Shown here: positions 4,607-15,302 of the stretch, one piece after another | How the letters are laid out: each line of letters begins with the position of its first letter | How positions within the stretch are numbered: position 1 is the stretch's first letter | Assembly: GCA_012800805.1 (NCBI GenBank) | Contig: JAAZIO010000088.1 | Span: forward strand, 1-18,335 | Source: Clostridiales bacterium | Lineage (GTDB): Bacteria; Bacillota; Clostridia; Christensenellales; CAG-917 | Length of the DNA: 18,335 nucleotides | Direction of reading: 5' to 3' | Translations under genes and position numbers: made by a program | Notes under the pieces: generated by a model | What the model was told of the DNA's origin: nothing | Database searches by the model: none | The model's input: only the letters and a program-made list of their open reading frames with translations

Positions 4607-4613
4607 CCACGTA

Positions 4614-4933
4614 GCAAGGTTAGTCTGTAAGCCGAGTTCTGTCTTAAATGGCCATCTGTCTAGGCGCATAGTTGCCTATACGCTCAAGCGATTTGAAGGA
4701 CGGGCGGGCTACCCATCTGTCCTTACTCTCTTGCATCGAGTGGGGTTTACACGGCTTGCCGTCGCCGGGTCGCCGGTGAGCTCTTACCTCACCTTTTCAC
4801 CCTTACCCTTGCGGGCGGTTATTTTCTGTTGCACTTTCCTTAAAGTCGCCTTTACAGGGAGTTACCCTGCACCCTTGCCCTGCGATGCTCGGACTTTCCT
4901 CATCTTGCGATGCGGCCATTCGACTAACTTGCC
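4614..4933 (-). ncRNA. rnpB: RNase P RNA (type A-like)
   Basis: This is the catalytic RNA of RNase P, which removes 5' leaders from pre-tRNAs. The minus strand contains the conserved 5' core GAGGAAAGTCCGAGC (P4 and CR-I region) and near the 3' end ACAGAACTCGGCTTACAG (CR-V). The ends pair as helix P1: GCAAGTTAGTC at 4932-4922 with GACTAACCTTGC at 4625-4614, leaving one bulged C. The length of about 320 nt is smaller than the usual 350-400 nt but is compatible with a compact type A RNA, the form typical of Clostridia rather than Bacilli. It has its own promoter and terminator, so it is a stand-alone unit between recN and the glucan synthase gene. The exact ends are placed on P1 and the promoter and could be off by a few bases. 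Confidence 0.95.
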
Positions 4934-8944: not shown

Positions 8945-8973
8945 TTGACTTATATTAAGCTATTCAATATACT
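8945..8973 (+). promoter_or_regulatory. Strong promoter of the zinc-ribbon membrane protein gene
   Basis: TTGACT at 8945-8950 and TATACT at 8968-8973 are separated by exactly 17 bases, a near-consensus sigma-A promoter. The expected +1, six to eight bases after the -10, falls at 8979-8981, on or just before the ATG at 8981. The mRNA should therefore have almost no leader. Confidence 0.7.
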
Positions 8974-8980
8974 ATTAAGG

Positions 8981-9526
8981 ATGAAAAAAGATATCAAAAA
9001 GACAATAAACAAGCTTTTAACCGCATCAATTGTACTTAGCGTTTTGTTTGTTATAGGAATACCCGGGATTATAATATCCGCTGAAAATCTTGAGAGTAGC
9101 AAGTTTGCCGCTTTCACCCTTGCATTATCTATCGCCTCGGTCGCCGCAGGGTTTTATGTCGCGCCGATACTTTGGATACAATTTGGTGAATACAAGAAAA
9201 AACAAAATATAATTATTTCCGTTGAAGCGGACGCAATAAGAGATATTTCCGCTTTGGCCTCGCTTTACGGCATGAAAGCGGGCACAATGAAGAATTTAAT
9301 TTTAACCCTTATTCAAAAACGATACATAACGGATTACCTTTTAAACGAAGACGGCACAAAAATAGTTCCAAATAATCTAAAACAGGAAATTATCGAGGAA
9401 AAGCTTCGCAAGAACTTAAAAAGAGTTCACAGGTGCGCCTTTTGCGGGGCGAATGTCGTATATGAGGGGCTTCAAACCACTTGCCCGTATTGCGGCAACC
9501 TTTTAGGCGAAACGCCAAAAGATTAA
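8981..9526 (+). CDS. Small membrane protein with C-terminal zinc ribbon, unknown function
   Basis: I do not recognise the family. The 181-residue product starts with a short basic segment, then has two hydrophobic helices (about 13-33 and 42-65) forming a hairpin. A cytosolic-looking part follows (about 76-145) whose ISVEADAIRDISALASLYG... pattern resembles a small winged-helix or PCI-like fold. It ends in a zinc ribbon with CAFC at 152-155 and CPYC at 168-171. The ATG at 8981 is chosen because the upstream in-frame TTG at 8945 is the promoter -35 element. There is AAGG directly against the ATG but no normally spaced ribosome binding site. It is on the opposite strand to both neighbours and sits between tlyA and nadK, which are normally adjacent. 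A coupled membrane sensor or a membrane-anchored protein-binding adaptor is possible, but this is inference only. Confidence 0.8.
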   Translation: MKKDIKKTINKLLTASIVLSVLFVIGIPGIIISAENLESSKFAAFTLALSIASVAAGFYVAPILWIQFGEYKKKQNIIISVEADAIRDISALASLYGMKAGTMKNLILTLIQKRYITDYLLNEDGTKIVPNNLKQEIIEEKLRKNLKRVHRCAFCGANVVYEGLQTTCPYCGNLLGETPKD

Positions 9527-9548: not shown

Positions 9549-10259
9549 TTATTTTTTAAGATATATTAAATACTCAATATTTTTAGCTTCAACCAGCGGA
9601 GCTTCCACAGTTCCTTTTACCGTAAAACCCAAAGCGGCGGCAAAGTTTTTTATCTTATCCACAGCGAAAAGCCTTTGATTTTCATCCTTTACTATGCCGT
9701 GCTTGTTTATGCCCGATTTTCCAACCTCAAACTGAGGTTTAATAAGCAATACCGCCTCTCCGCTTTCTTTAAGCAATCCATAAATTGCGGGCATGACCAA
9801 AGTTAAGGAAATAAAACTTAAATCCGCGCAAAGAAAATCAAATTCTCCAAGATTGTAATTGAGCAGCTCCCTTGCGTTAGCGCGCAAAAACCTTACTTTA
9901 CCGCTATTTAAAATGTCAGAGTCAAGAGCGCACTCCCCGACATCCACGCCAAGCACGCTTTTTGCGCCGTGGCGAAGAAGACAATCCGTAAACCCTCCGT
10001 TAGAGCAACCTAGGTCAATGCAAGACAGCCCTTCAACCATGATATTGAAATGCTTTATCGCCTTTTCAAGCTTGGCTCCGCCCGCTGAAGCAAAAGATTC
10101 CACTTTCATTATCTCAATGTTCGCGCCGTCAGGCACTTCAAAAGCGCAGGTAAAAATAATTTTACCGTCAACCCTCACATGACCGCTTTTAATCAACGAT
10201 TGGGCATATGTTCTTGATTTCAATTTGTTTGTTTCAAAAATATAACTGTCAAGCCTCAT
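9549..10259 (-). CDS. tlyA: TlyA-family rRNA 2'-O-methyltransferase (S4 + FtsJ domains)
   Basis: TlyA proteins (YqxC in Bacillus) methylate ribose 2'-OH groups in 16S and/or 23S rRNA; some homologues are called hemolysins. The 236 residues are somewhat shorter than the usual 265-275. An S4 RNA-binding domain occupies about 1-60 (SRTYAQSLIKSGHVRVDG), followed by a linker and an SAM-dependent FtsJ-like domain with the SAM loop IDLGCSNGGFTD at 81-92, ADLSFIS near 145 and LIKPQFEVG near 172. The linker motif usually RGGxKL reads AGGAKL. The ATG at 10259 overlaps the last 11 bases of dxs, so translation is coupled. It ends 22 bases from the stop of the opposing zinc-ribbon gene, with no clear terminator between them. 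Confidence 0.93.
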   Translation of the reverse strand: MRLDSYIFETNKLKSRTYAQSLIKSGHVRVDGKIIFTCAFEVPDGANIEIMKVESFASAGGAKLEKAIKHFNIMVEGLSCIDLGCSNGGFTDCLLRHGAKSVLGVDVGECALDSDILNSGKVRFLRANARELLNYNLGEFDFLCADLSFISLTLVMPAIYGLLKESGEAVLLIKPQFEVGKSGINKHGIVKDENQRLFAVDKIKNFAAALGFTVKGTVEAPLVEAKNIEYLIYLKK

Positions 10260-11925
10260 ATGCTTTTATTATCTTTTCGGCAAGAGATTTCGCGTTAAGC
10301 CCCAGATTATTTTCCATCTCCTCAATCGACGCCTGCTTTTGCAACGGGTCTTCCACCGATACGGTAAGAAGTTTCCCTTTTAAATTTTCTTTATTATACA
10401 AAGCTATTATAGATTGTCCGAAACCGCCGTTTTCTATGCCGTCCTCAATTGTTACCACCATGCCTTGTTCCGCTGCTTTTTTAACGGCTTTTACATCAAT
10501 CGGCTTTATGAATAAGGCGTTTACAACCTGCGCCCTTATCCCTTTTTGCCTTAACAGTTCATACGCTTCAACAGCCAGTCTGTATGTTCTTGCGCCCGTT
10601 GTGAAAATCGTGATATCTGCACTATCGGGAGTATACTCCCATTCCCCGACTGCGATTTTACCTACATGCTCAGCCGTATCCTCTACATATTTCGGATAGC
10701 AAACGGCTAAAGGTTTATCAAACTTTGCTGCGAATTCAACAAGCATTTTAAGCTCTGTTTTGCTCTTTGGTGCGGCAACGGTCATATTCGGCATTGAAAG
10801 AAGATAACTGTAAGCATAAAAGCCCTGATGCGTTTCGCCGTCATAGTCAACGGCTCCCGTATGGTCCACAAAGAGCCTTACGGGGCGCTCATCTAGGCAG
10901 ACATCGACAATCAGCTGGTCGTATGCTCTTTGCAAAAAGGTTGAATATATGGCAACAAACGGCTTGTAGCCCGATTTTGCAAGCGCCGCCGCAAAAGTCA
11001 CGGCATGGGCTTCGCAAATTCCTGCGTCAAAGAATCTCTCGGGGTAGTTTTTAGAAAAATCCAAAAGCCCTACTCCGCCGGTCATCGCCGCGGTAATCGC
11101 AGCAATCTTATCGTCTTTTACCGCAAGTTCCGTCAACGCTTTGCCGAAAACACTTGAATAGGTTTCTCTTAACGCAACGCCCACGCTATGGAATTTTTCG
11201 GGATGTTTTACGGAAGGCGCATAGCCTTTTCCTTTTTCAGTAACCGCCCTTAAAGCCACGGGGCCGTCGTTGTCTTTCGCCTTTTTGAAGATATCGAAAA
11301 GTTTTGAAAAATCGTGCCCGTCCGCGCTGCCGAGATATTCAATGCCTAAAGATGAGAAAAATTTACCAAGCCTTTCATCCGACGAAGTAAGCTCCGCCCC
11401 CGTGCTGGATATGGTCATTCCGTTATCGTTTAAAACTATAATTACTTTATCTTTTCTTCTCGATATGTCGCAAAGCGCTTCAAAAGTCTGACCGCAAAGG
11501 AAAGAGCCGTCGCCTATAACCGCGACGATTTCATAACTTTCACCGCTTAACTCTCTTGCTTTAGCAAGACCGGAGCAAAGCGAAAGCGATGTTGAAGCGT
11601 GACCCGTGCTGAAAAGGTCATATACGCTTTCAGAAACTTTAGGAAATCCCGAAACACCGTTTGAGCGCCTTAAATTTTTAAACTCGTTTAATCTGCCCGT
11701 TAAAATTTTATGGGTGTAGCACTGGTGGCCCACATCAAAAACAATTTTATCTTTTTCAATGTCAAAACAGCCGTATAAAGCGACGGTCAGTTCCACTACG
11801 CCGAGGTTTGAAGCAAGATGCCCGCCGTTTTTCAGGCAAGCGTCGATTATTTCCTTTCTTATCTCATCCGCGACGGCGTGAAGCTCGTTTATATTTAAAT
11901 GTTTTAGCACTTTATAATCTATCAT
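10249..11925 (-). CDS. dxs: 1-deoxy-D-xylulose-5-phosphate synthase, short and divergent
   Basis: Dxs condenses pyruvate and glyceraldehyde 3-phosphate in a thiamine diphosphate-dependent reaction, the first step of the MEP isoprenoid pathway. Family motifs are present: HLASNLGVVELT, DVGHQCYTHKILTGR, VIGDGSF...EAL, LNDNGMTIS, FHSVG, ICEAHAVTFAA (catalytic Glu), STFLQRAYDQ and DGETHQG. The product is 558 residues against about 620 in E. coli, with the shortfall mainly in the first domain after LNDNGMTIS. Two positions look altered: DRAG is DHTG and YPRG is YPKY. From memory of the E. coli enzyme these are Arg420 and Arg478, which bind the acceptor phosphate. The start ATG overlaps the oapA stop as ATGA. 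Coupling with tlyA follows at the other end. It is probably the housekeeping Dxs, but an altered acceptor is conceivable. Confidence 0.92.
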   Translation of the reverse strand: MIDYKVLKHLNINELHAVADEIRKEIIDACLKNGGHLASNLGVVELTVALYGCFDIEKDKIVFDVGHQCYTHKILTGRLNEFKNLRRSNGVSGFPKVSESVYDLFSTGHASTSLSLCSGLAKARELSGESYEIVAVIGDGSFLCGQTFEALCDISRRKDKVIIVLNDNGMTISSTGAELTSSDERLGKFFSSLGIEYLGSADGHDFSKLFDIFKKAKDNDGPVALRAVTEKGKGYAPSVKHPEKFHSVGVALRETYSSVFGKALTELAVKDDKIAAITAAMTGGVGLLDFSKNYPERFFDAGICEAHAVTFAAALAKSGYKPFVAIYSTFLQRAYDQLIVDVCLDERPVRLFVDHTGAVDYDGETHQGFYAYSYLLSMPNMTVAAPKSKTELKMLVEFAAKFDKPLAVCYPKYVEDTAEHVGKIAVGEWEYTPDSADITIFTTGARTYRLAVEAYELLRQKGIRAQVVNALFIKPIDVKAVKKAAEQGMVVTIEDGIENGGFGQSIIALYNKENLKGKLLTVSVEDPLQKQASIEEMENNLGLNAKSLAEKIIKAYEA

Positions 11926-12629
11926 TTCTTCTTTTTTGCTTTCCTTTCATCTTTGGAAAAAGCGGCCAGTATTTTTGCAACGAAAAAGACCAGTTCCCTT
12001 GAGTTGTTTATAGCCACATTTTTAAGGGCGGCTTTACCGCCTATCGTTATAGCCGCGACAATGCTGGATATTAAAATCGTCAGCAACTGCTGGCTTGAAT
12101 TTGGCATGAGCTTTAATATAGCCAATACAATAACAACCGAGCAGGCACCGGACACTATGCCGAAAATATCGCCCAAAACATCGCAACAAATGTTTGCTAC
12201 TTTCTCGGCGTTTTTTACAAGTTTTATAGCCGTTTTTGCGCCGTAAACTTTTCTTGACGCCATAGAAAGCAGCGGAGCCAAATCGCATGAGGTTACCGCG
12301 ACTCCTATCGCGTCAAACATGATTGAGGCAAGTATCAAAAACAAAAGCAATATTATTATGATTATGATATTGTCAAGTGAGCCTGTAAGCTCGCTTAAAA
12401 AACTGAAAAACGCCGCCAGGAAAAAACTGATAATGGCAATTTTTAAAAACCAGAGGTCCCTCTTTTTTAAATGTTTCTTTTCTTCTTTACCGTTGGATTC
12501 TTTTTTGTCCGACGAAAACTCAACTTGATTTTCGGTTAAATCAAGCTGCTCCTCCGCGCTTGCCGCAGGAGTTTCAATAGGTGATTTAGCTTGCTTTTTC
12601 TTGGCCTTTTTCTTATTTTCGTCCGACAA
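11922..12629 (-). CDS. oapA: OapA-like OLE RNA-associated membrane protein
   Basis: A 235-residue protein from TTG at 12629: a lysine- and acid-rich soluble N-terminus (1-58), then hydrophobic segments at about 62-80, 87-112, 155-173 and 181-200, and a KAKKKK tail. The core AIGVAVTSCDLAPLLSMASRKVYGAK (split here as AIGVAVTSCD at 107-116 and LLSMASRKVYGAK at 120-132), followed by KNAEKVANICCDVLGD, matches my memory of the family always found beside OLE RNA and dxs and often labelled a CorB-like transporter. OapA binds OLE RNA and brings it to the membrane; the pair affects tolerance of short-chain alcohols, cold and magnesium stress. A longer frame from GTG at 12701 would run through the OLE closing helix and the terminator and is unlikely; TTG at 12629 has GAGG five to six bases upstream. 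The stop overlaps the dxs start (ATGA). Confidence 0.82.
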   Translation of the reverse strand: MSDENKKKAKKKQAKSPIETPAASAEEQLDLTENQVEFSSDKKESNGKEEKKHLKKRDLWFLKIAIISFFLAAFFSFLSELTGSLDNIIIIIILLLFLILASIMFDAIGVAVTSCDLAPLLSMASRKVYGAKTAIKLVKNAEKVANICCDVLGDIFGIVSGACSVVIVLAILKLMPNSSQQLLTILISSIVAAITIGGKAALKNVAINNSRELVFFVAKILAAFSKDERKAKKKK

Positions 12630-12644
12630 TTTAGCCTCTATAAC

Positions 12645-12668
12645 AAAACACGGCAAAATAAGCCGTGT
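12645..12668 (-). terminator. Terminator or attenuator between OLE RNA and oapA
   Basis: On the minus strand, ACACGGC (12668-12662) pairs perfectly with GCCGTGT (12654-12648) around a seven-base loop, followed by TTTGTTAT. The T run is interrupted, so termination is probably partial. It would set the 3' end of a roughly 620-nt OLE transcript and let a fraction of polymerases continue into oapA-dxs-tlyA. Confidence 0.65.
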
Positions 12669-12685
12669 CAAATGCAACCGAAGTT

Positions 12686-13265
12686 TATATGGTGGTATCA
12701 CTTGAGTAAACTTTGTGTCATAGGTCCGGTCGGATTTCCCCTTCGCGGAAACTTTTCGTCGCCGAAAAGAAGTTTCCTATTATACCGCGAATCGCCGGGT
12801 TACCCTTGGCGCCACCGGATAGCCACTTAGAGCACACTGTAATCCCCAAGCGAACTCTTTCGAGCAGTCTAGAAGTTTTCCTTGGCAGACTGCCACTGTC
12901 CTTAGCCTCTTTTGCAGAAACAGTTTCATCAGGCGATCGCCTTGTTGCGTCGGCCAACGCAGCGCGGCGTAGTTCCCAAATCCACTGCCCCCACTCAAGG
13001 CAGGCTACACTGTACACAGCGCATATGCACCGCATAGCAGGTTTAATCCTGTTCAGTAGCCTAAGCTACCAAGACAGGTCTCCGCGATACCTGGGTCGGT
13101 GTTCGCATGCCGTTGCGAGCCGCCCAAATATCTTAACTTTCAGCAACAGCCCGAGTTTGGGCAACTCAAGCCATCACCAAAAGCTTCATCGATATGCCCG
13201 TCGACGATATTTTACCCCCGTCTTCGGAGCAGCGCAGTCTGACTAGAATACTGCACCACCATATA
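12686..13265 (-). ncRNA. ole: OLE RNA (ornate large extremophilic RNA)
   Basis: This 580-base GC-rich block has no protein homology in any frame and is packed with hairpins. Its ends form an 11-bp helix: TATATGGTGGT (13265-13255) pairs perfectly with ACCACCATATA (12696-12686). Internal hairpins include GTAGC-TTAG-GCTAC (13069-13056) nested inside CCTGT/ACAGG, GGAAAC/GTTTCC with inner TTTTCG/CGAAAA (12777-12747), and GCAGTCT/AGACTGC (around 12890-12862). A promoter lies exactly at the 5' end and a terminator just beyond the 3' end. The gene directly downstream is OapA-like, then dxs, the established neighbourhood of OLE RNA, and the length fits the roughly 600-nt class. Identification rests on context, length and architecture; I could not run a covariance search. 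OLE RNA forms a membrane-located complex with OapA and other proteins. Confidence 0.85.
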
Positions 13266-13273
13266 TATTTAGT

Positions 13274-13301
13274 ATTATACACATTTATGCAAAAAAGTCA
13301 A
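13274..13301 (-). promoter_or_regulatory. OLE RNA promoter
   Basis: TTGACT at 13301-13296 and TATAAT at 13279-13274 are 16 bases apart. The predicted +1 is at about 13267, two bases before the first base of the OLE closing helix. The -35 begins only 16 bases after the recG stop, with no terminator between, so read-through from the recG operon can add to it. Confidence 0.85.
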
Positions 13302-13316: not shown

Positions 13317-15302
13317 TCAAAGCATATATGTGTGGTAAATAACGGTTAAATCCTCAAATTCATCGGCATTTGGTTTATGCTCTTCAATATATAATTTTGC
13401 CAACTTTTCCGCTTTTTTTATAACTTCGTCGGTTAGCCCAAAACCCTCCGTTCCGCTCTGCTTTTGTCCGAAAAGCTCGCCGCTTCCTCTCATCTCAAAA
13501 TCTTTTTGGGCAATCTCCGCCCCGTCATAGGATTGTTTTAAAATACCAAGTCTTTTAATTGAGTTTTCCCCCGCGTTTTCGGATAGGCATAAATAGCACC
13601 AAGCAGTCTCGCCGTTACGCCCGACCCTACCCCTAAGCTGGTGCAGCGTGGACAGCCCGAAGCGGTCGGCAGATAAAACAGCCATAATTGAGGCGTCTTG
13701 CACATCTATTCCTACCTCAACCACGCTGGTTGATACAACAGCTTTCACTTGCCCGTCTTTAAATTTTTTAAGCGCCTTGTTTTTGTCTTCATCGCTCATT
13801 TTGCCGTGCATGATGGCAAAACCTATATCTTTAAAAGCCCCTTTCTTTAGTTCCTTTGATAGCTTTTCGACAGAGTAAAGTTCCACTCCTTCGCTGTCGT
13901 ATAGGCGCGGACAAATTATATATGCCTTTTTGCCTCTTTTGATTTCCTCTGCTATATAATTTAGCATATCATTAACTTTTGAGTGCGGAACAAGATGCGT
14001 ACTTACGTTTCTGCCATTGCCAATCGGTTTTAAATTGCTTAGTGAAATAAAACCCAGACCCGACAGGGCAACGGTTCTTGGTATAGGCGTAGCGCTTAGA
14101 GAAAGAGCGTCCGCGCCTCCGCAAAGCTTTATAAGCCGCCCTTTTTGCGCCACGCCAAATCTTTGCTGTTCGTCGATTATAACAAGCGAAAGATTTTGGG
14201 GATTAATATTATCCAAAAGCAAGGCATGCGTTCCTATGTATAGCGCAGGCGTTCCGCTGTTTAATTCATTTACGATTTCATATTTGTTTTCCGTTTCCGA
14301 AGTGATAAGTCTGCAACTAAAGCCAAGTTTACCAAGATATTCCTTTGCGATAATGTCGTGCTGCTCTGCCAATATGGAAGTCGGGGCAAGCAAAGCCGCC
14401 TGATAGCCTGAGTTTAGCGCAAGAGCCGCCGCAATTAAGGCGCAAGCTGTTTTTCCCGAACCGACATCGCCGCAAATAAGCCTGTTCATGTATCTTGACG
14501 ATTTCAAATCGCAAGCAATGTCATATGCGGCTTCTTTTTGCGACAGGGTCAGTTCAAACTCAAAAGCCGAACAAAAGCGGTTTAATTCATCATCTGTAAA
14601 TGAATATTTCTTTTCGCGGGCAAGGCCCGAGTTTATGACCTCAAAAGCGGCTATTTGCCTTGCAGTTTGCTCTATTTTCAGCCTTTCTTTTGCCTTTAAA
14701 CCCTCGTCAACGCTGCTAGGCATGTGAAGATTAAATAATGTTTCTTTATAAGTTTTAATGTCATGTTTTTTGCAAAATTCATCCGAAAAGAAACGAGGTC
14801 TTAGTTCAATATCGGAATTTAAAGCATTAAGTATTATATTTTTAAAAACTTTTTGAGATAGTATCCCTTTAAGCGGATATACCGGAGCCACTCCTTTTAA
14901 ATGTTTGATTTTATCACAAGGCTCGAAATCGGGATTAATCAGATATCTAACCCCTTTATCGTCCGAGTTGATTTTACCGTAAAAAACAAAGCTCTCGCCA
15001 ACCGAAAACTTGTTTTTTAACATCATCATGTTGAAAAAGTAGACGATAAAAGAGCCCTTCACGCTCTTAACTGTTAGAGAAAAATACTTTCTTTTAAAAT
15101 TCGGGTCGGAAACTTTAGCGATTTCGCCTTTAATTAAACCATATTCGCCGCTGTCAAAATCCAAAACGCCGCCGCAAAAACCAAGGTCCACATACCTCGA
15201 CGGCTCAAAATTTAAAAGCGCGGGTATATCCTCCACGCCCAAAAGCTCAAGCTTTTTGGCGGTGCTCTCGCCCACTCCTTTAATGTCGGTAAGTTTTTTC
15301 AT
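13317..15302 (-). CDS. recG: ATP-dependent DNA helicase RecG
   Basis: RecG is a double-stranded DNA translocase that reverses stalled forks and remodels Holliday junctions and R-loops. The 661 residues are near the usual 680-690. A helix-hairpin-helix-like start (LTDIKGVGESTAKKLELLG) and an OB-fold wedge domain (about 50-150) precede the two helicase lobes: GDVGSGKT near 277 (motif I), APTSILAEQH (Ia), IIDEQQRFG near 376 (II), LSATPIPRT (III), MHGKMS (IV), STSVVEVGIDVQDA (V) and HQLRGRVGR (VI). Motif II normally reads DEQHRFG; Gln replaces His here. The ATG overlaps the fakA stop by one base (TAATG), so translation is coupled. It is the third gene of asp23-fakA-recG, an order like yloU-yloV-recG of Bacillus. 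Confidence 0.97.
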   Translation of the reverse strand: MKKLTDIKGVGESTAKKLELLGVEDIPALLNFEPSRYVDLGFCGGVLDFDSGEYGLIKGEIAKVSDPNFKRKYFSLTVKSVKGSFIVYFFNMMMLKNKFSVGESFVFYGKINSDDKGVRYLINPDFEPCDKIKHLKGVAPVYPLKGILSQKVFKNIILNALNSDIELRPRFFSDEFCKKHDIKTYKETLFNLHMPSSVDEGLKAKERLKIEQTARQIAAFEVINSGLAREKKYSFTDDELNRFCSAFEFELTLSQKEAAYDIACDLKSSRYMNRLICGDVGSGKTACALIAAALALNSGYQAALLAPTSILAEQHDIIAKEYLGKLGFSCRLITSETENKYEIVNELNSGTPALYIGTHALLLDNINPQNLSLVIIDEQQRFGVAQKGRLIKLCGGADALSLSATPIPRTVALSGLGFISLSNLKPIGNGRNVSTHLVPHSKVNDMLNYIAEEIKRGKKAYIICPRLYDSEGVELYSVEKLSKELKKGAFKDIGFAIMHGKMSDEDKNKALKKFKDGQVKAVVSTSVVEVGIDVQDASIMAVLSADRFGLSTLHQLRGRVGRNGETAWCYLCLSENAGENSIKRLGILKQSYDGAEIAQKDFEMRGSGELFGQKQSGTEGFGLTDEVIKKAEKLAKLYIEEHKPNADEFEDLTVIYHTYML

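Follow-up and report, generated by a model that had tools for sequence, protein, structure and literature searches.

Among structured bacterial RNAs that have no known biochemical role, OLE RNA is one of the largest. Binding of OapA to OLE RNA and membrane localisation are known from the literature on H. halodurans. According to the available text of one report, OapA occurs only together with OLE, and the PM1 mutant carries the substitutions D100A and D104A (PMC9723947). The published OLE variants include variant 1, with a shorter P7-P9 region, and variant 2, which has no P7 and P8 (available text of PMC11332333). Here, we compare with these systems an OLE locus found in a stretch of 18,335 nucleotides that was analysed as a whole (the window), together with its counterparts in relatives of the same order.

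Results

Identity and setting of the window RNA

The preliminary description, made from the sequence alone, took a non-coding block directly upstream of oapA and dxs for OLE RNA and proposed a covariance search as a check. This search was positive across the entire model: the Rfam OLE family (RF01071) matched positions 12,676 to 13,275 of the minus strand with 442.4 bits (E 3.7e-127; gathering score, 50), from model position 1 to 616 of 616. The window RNA is thus a complete copy and a new member of the known OLE family, and no other OLE match was obtained in its source draft genome (1.1 Mb, 73% complete). The predicted fold has an energy of -239.8 kcal/mol (z -7.3), and none of 100 shuffled sequences gave a value as low. 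A protein-coding reading of the block is unsupported. The longest stop-free stretches inside the window OLE, 115 codons in the sense and 178 in the antisense direction, exceed the medians of 69 and 86 codons typical of 63 OLE loci (range in the antisense direction, 48-185); open frames are therefore no shared feature of OLE, and the two window ORFs that run across it had no Pfam match. The block is non-coding, as had been proposed.

The neighbouring genes on the minus strand were named by us from their Pfam domains. Upstream of OLE lies recG (13,317-15,302). Downstream, oapA (11,922-12,629; 235 amino acids) was given a TTG start with GAGG upstream, a choice of ours; the longest oapA ORF runs from a GTG at 12,701 and starts inside OLE. 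The oapA stop overlaps dxs (10,249-11,925) by four bases, and beyond dxs the strand carries genes for an S4/FtsJ-domain methyltransferase and a NAD kinase, argR and a gene for a RecN-like SMC protein. The order OLE, oapA, dxs given in the preliminary description is correct, and the encoded OapA has its DxxxD motif; the window locus is an ordinary, well-formed OLE locus. In the window's family, recG lies upstream of OLE in 24 of the 28 loci with upstream sequence; it was found there in no locus of the other families, and in the loci of genus g67 that were checked the upstream gene is ispA. Two further elements were seen in the window. One is an RNase P RNA of bacterial class A (4,612-4,931, minus strand; 249.8 bits); the other, located between the genes for the FtsJ-domain protein and the NAD kinase and on the opposite (plus) strand, is an ORF of 193 amino acids (8,945-9,526) with hydrophobic N-terminal stretches, a CxxC...CxxC end and no Pfam match.

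Promoter, closing helix and transcript end

The RNA had been proposed to have a near-consensus promoter of its own, and the comparison with relatives agrees. A -35 element, TTGACT (13,296-13,301, minus strand), is followed after 16 nucleotides by a -10 element, TATAAT (13,274-13,279, minus strand); both were assigned by a consensus scan and by their conserved place in relatives, and the pair scores 11 out of 12. The bare consensus is unremarkable, with three promoter-like sites in a stretch of 1,901 bases against 2.7 expected, and the strength of the promoter as evidence comes from its conserved place. The genome of the window and 99 relatives were searched for OLE, which was found in 69 of these 100 genomes, and all 69 loci were taken. 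In 60 of them, the highest-scoring promoter-like pair within 60 bases 5' of the RNA was recorded; of the other nine, eight had too short an upstream sequence and one had no anchor. Scores of 11 or 12 were obtained in 33 of these 60 loci of the same order (55%), and scores of at least 10 in 44, whereas 11 was reached by 0.3% of 1,200 shuffles and by 0.2% of 1,153 other same-strand places. In the window's family all 28 scored loci reached at least 10, 17 of them with the full 12, and in the other families 16 of the 32 scored loci reached 10. Possibly, the promoter became stronger after OLE left the isoprenoid operon. The covariance model overlaps the -10 element by its first bases; judging from spacing, transcription is expected to start near 13,267, two bases before the P1 helix, and the true 5' end of OLE is probably there rather than at the model start. 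No description of the native ole promoter was met in the text searched of PMC11332333, PMC12265935, PMC12054373, PMC9723947 and PMC10898510, and we claim no priority.

The P1 helix closes the RNA by pairing of a 5' arm (13,254-13,265, minus strand) with a 3' arm (12,686-12,697, minus strand). The preliminary description had joined the two ends by a helix of 11 bp; the helix stands and is kept in relatives, and its length is corrected to 12 bp, including one G-U. Its register is shared by 51 of the 63 loci with an anchor (six of the 69 were dropped for having none), and its letters vary among groups (GGTGG/CCACC, GCTGG/CCAGC and AGAGG/CCTCT, for example). The 61 fixed-register loci collapse to 22 distinct arm pairs; in these, 90% of the arm cells were paired against 78% in shuffles, a level that no shuffle out of 1,000 attained. 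Five pair types had changed on both sides, a count matched in 74 of 1,000 shuffles and not significant alone. The Rfam model shows the ends that form P1 as unpaired.

A hairpin terminator had been placed just after OLE. A terminator-like hairpin with a T-rich tail does exist at 12,647-12,669 of the minus strand, and it is strong for its composition (-13.5 kcal/mol, z -4.7). A comparable T-tailed hairpin within 150 bases of the OLE end was found in 10 of 65 loci, four having been dropped with fewer than 150 downstream bases, and in 2 of the 33 that belong to the window's family; the comparison lends no support to a conserved terminator or to a terminator-ended transcript. The z score and the T-rich tail would suit a free-standing OLE transcript that ends at this hairpin, with oapA and dxs expressed separately. 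We regard such an arrangement as doubtful: 31 of the 33 family loci with downstream sequence have no comparable hairpin, a simple scan gave no second promoter-like site between the OLE -10 element and the oapA start, and processing of the OLE 3' end has been reported in H. halodurans (available text of PMC11332333). Co-transcription of ole and oapA followed by 3' processing would fit the comparison better than a terminator.

The OapA protein

The window OapA is OapA-like in having four long helices in its structure model, a Pfam CNNM match of 21.2 bits, below the cut-off of 28.4, and a DxxxD motif (DVLGD, D150-D154; 12,168-12,182, minus strand), which is taken to be the motif changed in PM1 as given in the available text of PMC9723947. 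No NCBIfam model scored over its cut-off. The CNNM match was over the cut-off in two relatives in which no OLE was detected (G046 and G077), below it in a third (G069) and absent in a fourth (G098). AlphaFold models of the window protein and of a G046-type OapA had mean pLDDT values of 81.0 and 75.4, and in both a loop, basic in the window protein, lies between the second and third long helices. In Foldseek searches, CNNM/CorB and CorC Mg2+ transporters were the first solved structures for both models, with weak E values (0.007 and 0.048), a probability of 1.00 and low TM scores by query length (0.39 and 0.44). The loop, P119-K132 (PLLSMASRKVYGAK; 12,234-12,275, minus strand), is the proposed site of RNA docking. 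From the basic N-terminal tail of the protein and the cytoplasmic basic cluster of OapA described in the available text of PMC12265935, we infer that it is cytoplasmic.

The stretch before the first long helix varies, from about 200 residues at locus L028 of the window's family to about 13 at L007 of another family. In much of the window's family the N-terminal tails are long, lysine-rich and of low complexity (L028, L035 and L024 are examples), and in several other families they are short; the L024 protein has a long C-terminal tail as well.

OapA in relatives without a detected OLE RNA

Among 396 genomes of the order, 243 had a match to the OapA model, of which 227 were strong, the 16 matches at E 3e-8 to 3e-4 being set aside as MpfA-like, and 176 had OLE. 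Both were present in 174 genomes, two had OLE without a strong OapA, and 53 had a strong OapA without an OLE match; counted by hand, these 53 fell into families f5 (26), f28 (19), f7 (two) and others (six). The oapA locus was inspected in 11 of the 53, the other 42 including 18 of f28 that are possibly paralogues. In seven of the 11 (G046, G048, G076, G077, G098, G172 and G226), ispA lies directly before oapA and leaves no room for OLE. In the first five of these the ispA-oapA gap is 31-91 nt and dxs comes next; ispA, a polyprenyl synthetase gene, was assigned by Pfam in G046, G077 and G098 and by sequence match in G048 and G076. A permissive cmscan of 4.5-5 kb at the five loci gave no OLE, and neither did a second whole-genome search, which does not prove absence. 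With such gaps and an empty cmscan, a divergent OLE upstream of oapA was rejected for these genomes. G172 and G226 have the same ispA-oapA junction, and four of their congeners carry OLE in that gap.

Other inspected loci differed. In G069 (locus L114), a paralogous OapA-like gene with no OLE beside it sits between proS and infC, and G092 (L117) has a second OapA-like gene at the same place alongside a canonical OLE-oapA pair. Both of these genes precede an L20-leader-like element that scored below the Rfam cut-off. A contig end truncates the G142 locus, the G138 locus belongs to the relocated f13 type, and G032 was a false negative of the whole-genome search, in which cmscan found an OLE fragment at a contig edge.

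The window has OapA together with OLE, as PMC9723947 states for OapA, whereas five relatives (G046, G048, G076, G077 and G098) have OapA with no OLE detected. Old loss at the canonical locus is represented by only these five sequences, from two families (f5 and f7), G069 and the second G092 copy being non-canonical paralogues. In a limited literature search we found no report of OapA without OLE. These loci suggest that some relatives keep OapA after losing the RNA.

Partner proteins were counted in 72 high-quality relatives, 52 with OLE and 20 without, a comparison in which shared ancestry inflates tests of association. OapA was present in 51 of the 52 and in 6 of the 20, one of the six being G032, which later gave the OLE fragment. 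A protein of the L7Ae family (OapC or YlxQ, not separated) was present in 46 of 52 against 11 of 20, and a CorC_HlyC protein of the MpfA type in 11 of 52 against 15 of 20. The median OapB score was 114.7 bits with OLE and 84.5 bits without, OapB being defined by a KOW-like sequence and a place before infA, which we take to be that of YbzG, and not by a curated model. These trends agree with a published profile in which CorC_HlyC anticorrelates with OLE (available text of PMC11332333). The window's own genome, a 73% complete draft, had no match to PF01248 (L7Ae), which 75 of the 100 genomes of the set have (OapC and YlxQ not separated). Nor did it have OapB, matched in 91 of the 100; infA also had no match over the cut-off there, and the region may be missing. 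Six OLE genomes at least 94% complete (G002, G010, G011, G025, G050 and G092) had no L7Ae-family (OapC) match. For the OLE locus L062 (G081), no OapA match was found in the genome.

It might be argued that the OLE-less genomes do carry an OLE that has moved to a site away from oapA and escapes the Rfam model because of its divergence or of poor assembly. OLE and oapA are on separate contigs in G054 (L060) and G071 (L063), the truncated G142 locus and the relocated type of G138 could hide an RNA, and the whole-genome search was imperfect, scoring two candidates per genome and missing the proven G032 fragment. We nevertheless consider this improbable. Six genomes (G046, G048, G069, G076, G077 and G098) also lack any L7Ae-family match, and five of them are 95-100% complete (G077, 85%). 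Their OapB scores are 40-66 bits against the median of 114.7 in high-quality OLE genomes, although the OLE genome G092 has only 38.5. In all six, P119 and M123 of OapA are gone. Loss of the RNA is the reading we retain.

Change of the OapA loop with loss of OLE

A first comparison set 60 OLE-associated OapA sequences against seven older OLE-less copies (G046, G048, G076, G077, G098, G069 and the second G092 copy). P119 and M123, conserved in 97-98% of the former, were changed in all seven of the latter, in which R126, K127, G130 and A131 decay as well; D106, D150, G153, D154, K199 and K203 were kept in all seven. Outside the loop, E80 was often changed too, the acid being kept in two of the seven. 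In a wider comparison of 67 OLE-associated and nine OLE-less sequences, the seven older copies had 36 of 49 conserved loop cells changed against 34 of 203 elsewhere. The OLE-associated sequences had a mean of 0.42 changes over seven loop positions (maximum, three), a count lowered by the choice of these positions for conservation in that set, and the fair test is of loop against elsewhere within the OLE-less set. The apparently recent losers, G172 and G226, have a near-intact loop, with one and two of the seven positions changed. In genus g67, loss of K132 cannot serve as an indicator that OLE is gone, since the OLE-bearing congeners of G172 and G226 lack this residue too.

An OapA tree built without the loop required five label changes, at least four of them forced by well-supported branches (f28 paralogues, f7, f5, G172 and G226), with G138, which has no OLE match, counted as OLE-bearing. 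Two protein searches listed 240 homologues (120 out of 635 hits in one, 120 out of 470 in the other). A simple loop pattern was fitted by 163 of those listed and not by the remaining 77; the pattern is crude, some of the 77 (P0181 and P0240, for instance) having near-intact loops.

These comparisons make it likely that the 14 residues P119-K132 dock OLE RNA, and they suggest that OapA has a job independent of the RNA. Alternatively, the loop could face OapC, OapB or another partner and could have changed as those were lost too, since absence of L7Ae and weak OapB accompany loss of OLE. That it does so instead of facing the RNA seems unlikely, as the six high-quality OLE genomes without L7Ae listed above retain the loop and have no more than one of the seven positions changed.

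Discussion

The RNA in the window is OLE, with a promoter and a P1 helix conserved in relatives; oapA genes without OLE occur at the ispA-dxs locus, and the older ones have selectively lost the loop motif. From this we propose, with a probability of about 0.55, that the OLE gene is read from its own promoter, that OapA is a metal-transporter-like protein and that OLE RNA is its loop-docked regulatory subunit. In such a mechanism, the gene would be transcribed from a housekeeping promoter that probably drives oapA and dxs as well. The RNA would fold, close with P1 and bind OapA at the membrane. OapA, a membrane protein resembling CNNM/CorB and divalent metal transporters, would have a function of its own, which OLE RNA, docked on P119-K132, would regulate; docking, transport and regulation are the parts that we infer.

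OapA was probably freed from OLE several times within this taxonomic order: the RNA was deleted between ispA and oapA, OapC was lost, OapB drifted, the membrane core was kept and the RNA-facing loop was lost. If this is true, OLE RNA would serve a metal transporter as a regulatory subunit that can be dispensed with, and would not be the reason why OapA exists. The natural losses with OapA retained would then be ready-made controls, separating the role of OapA alone from what the RNA adds. They single out a short loop as the candidate RNA-binding site, and they tentatively place the DxxxD motif in the portion of the protein that acts independently of the RNA.

In relation to the known systems, the window RNA shares with the OLE family the whole-model match and the oapA and dxs neighbours, and it differs in lacking 13 bases of a hairpin near model positions 213-231. 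It may correspond to variant 1; variant 2 does not fit the full-length match. The window OapA has the same DxxxD motif, four long helices, basic loop and CNNM-like character as the known OapA, with, in addition, a lysine-rich stretch of about 55-60 residues before the first long helix. The CNNM transporters MpfA, CorB and CorC have the nearest solved folds to both OapA models; unlike them, the OapA ORF contains no CBS or CorC_HlyC domain.
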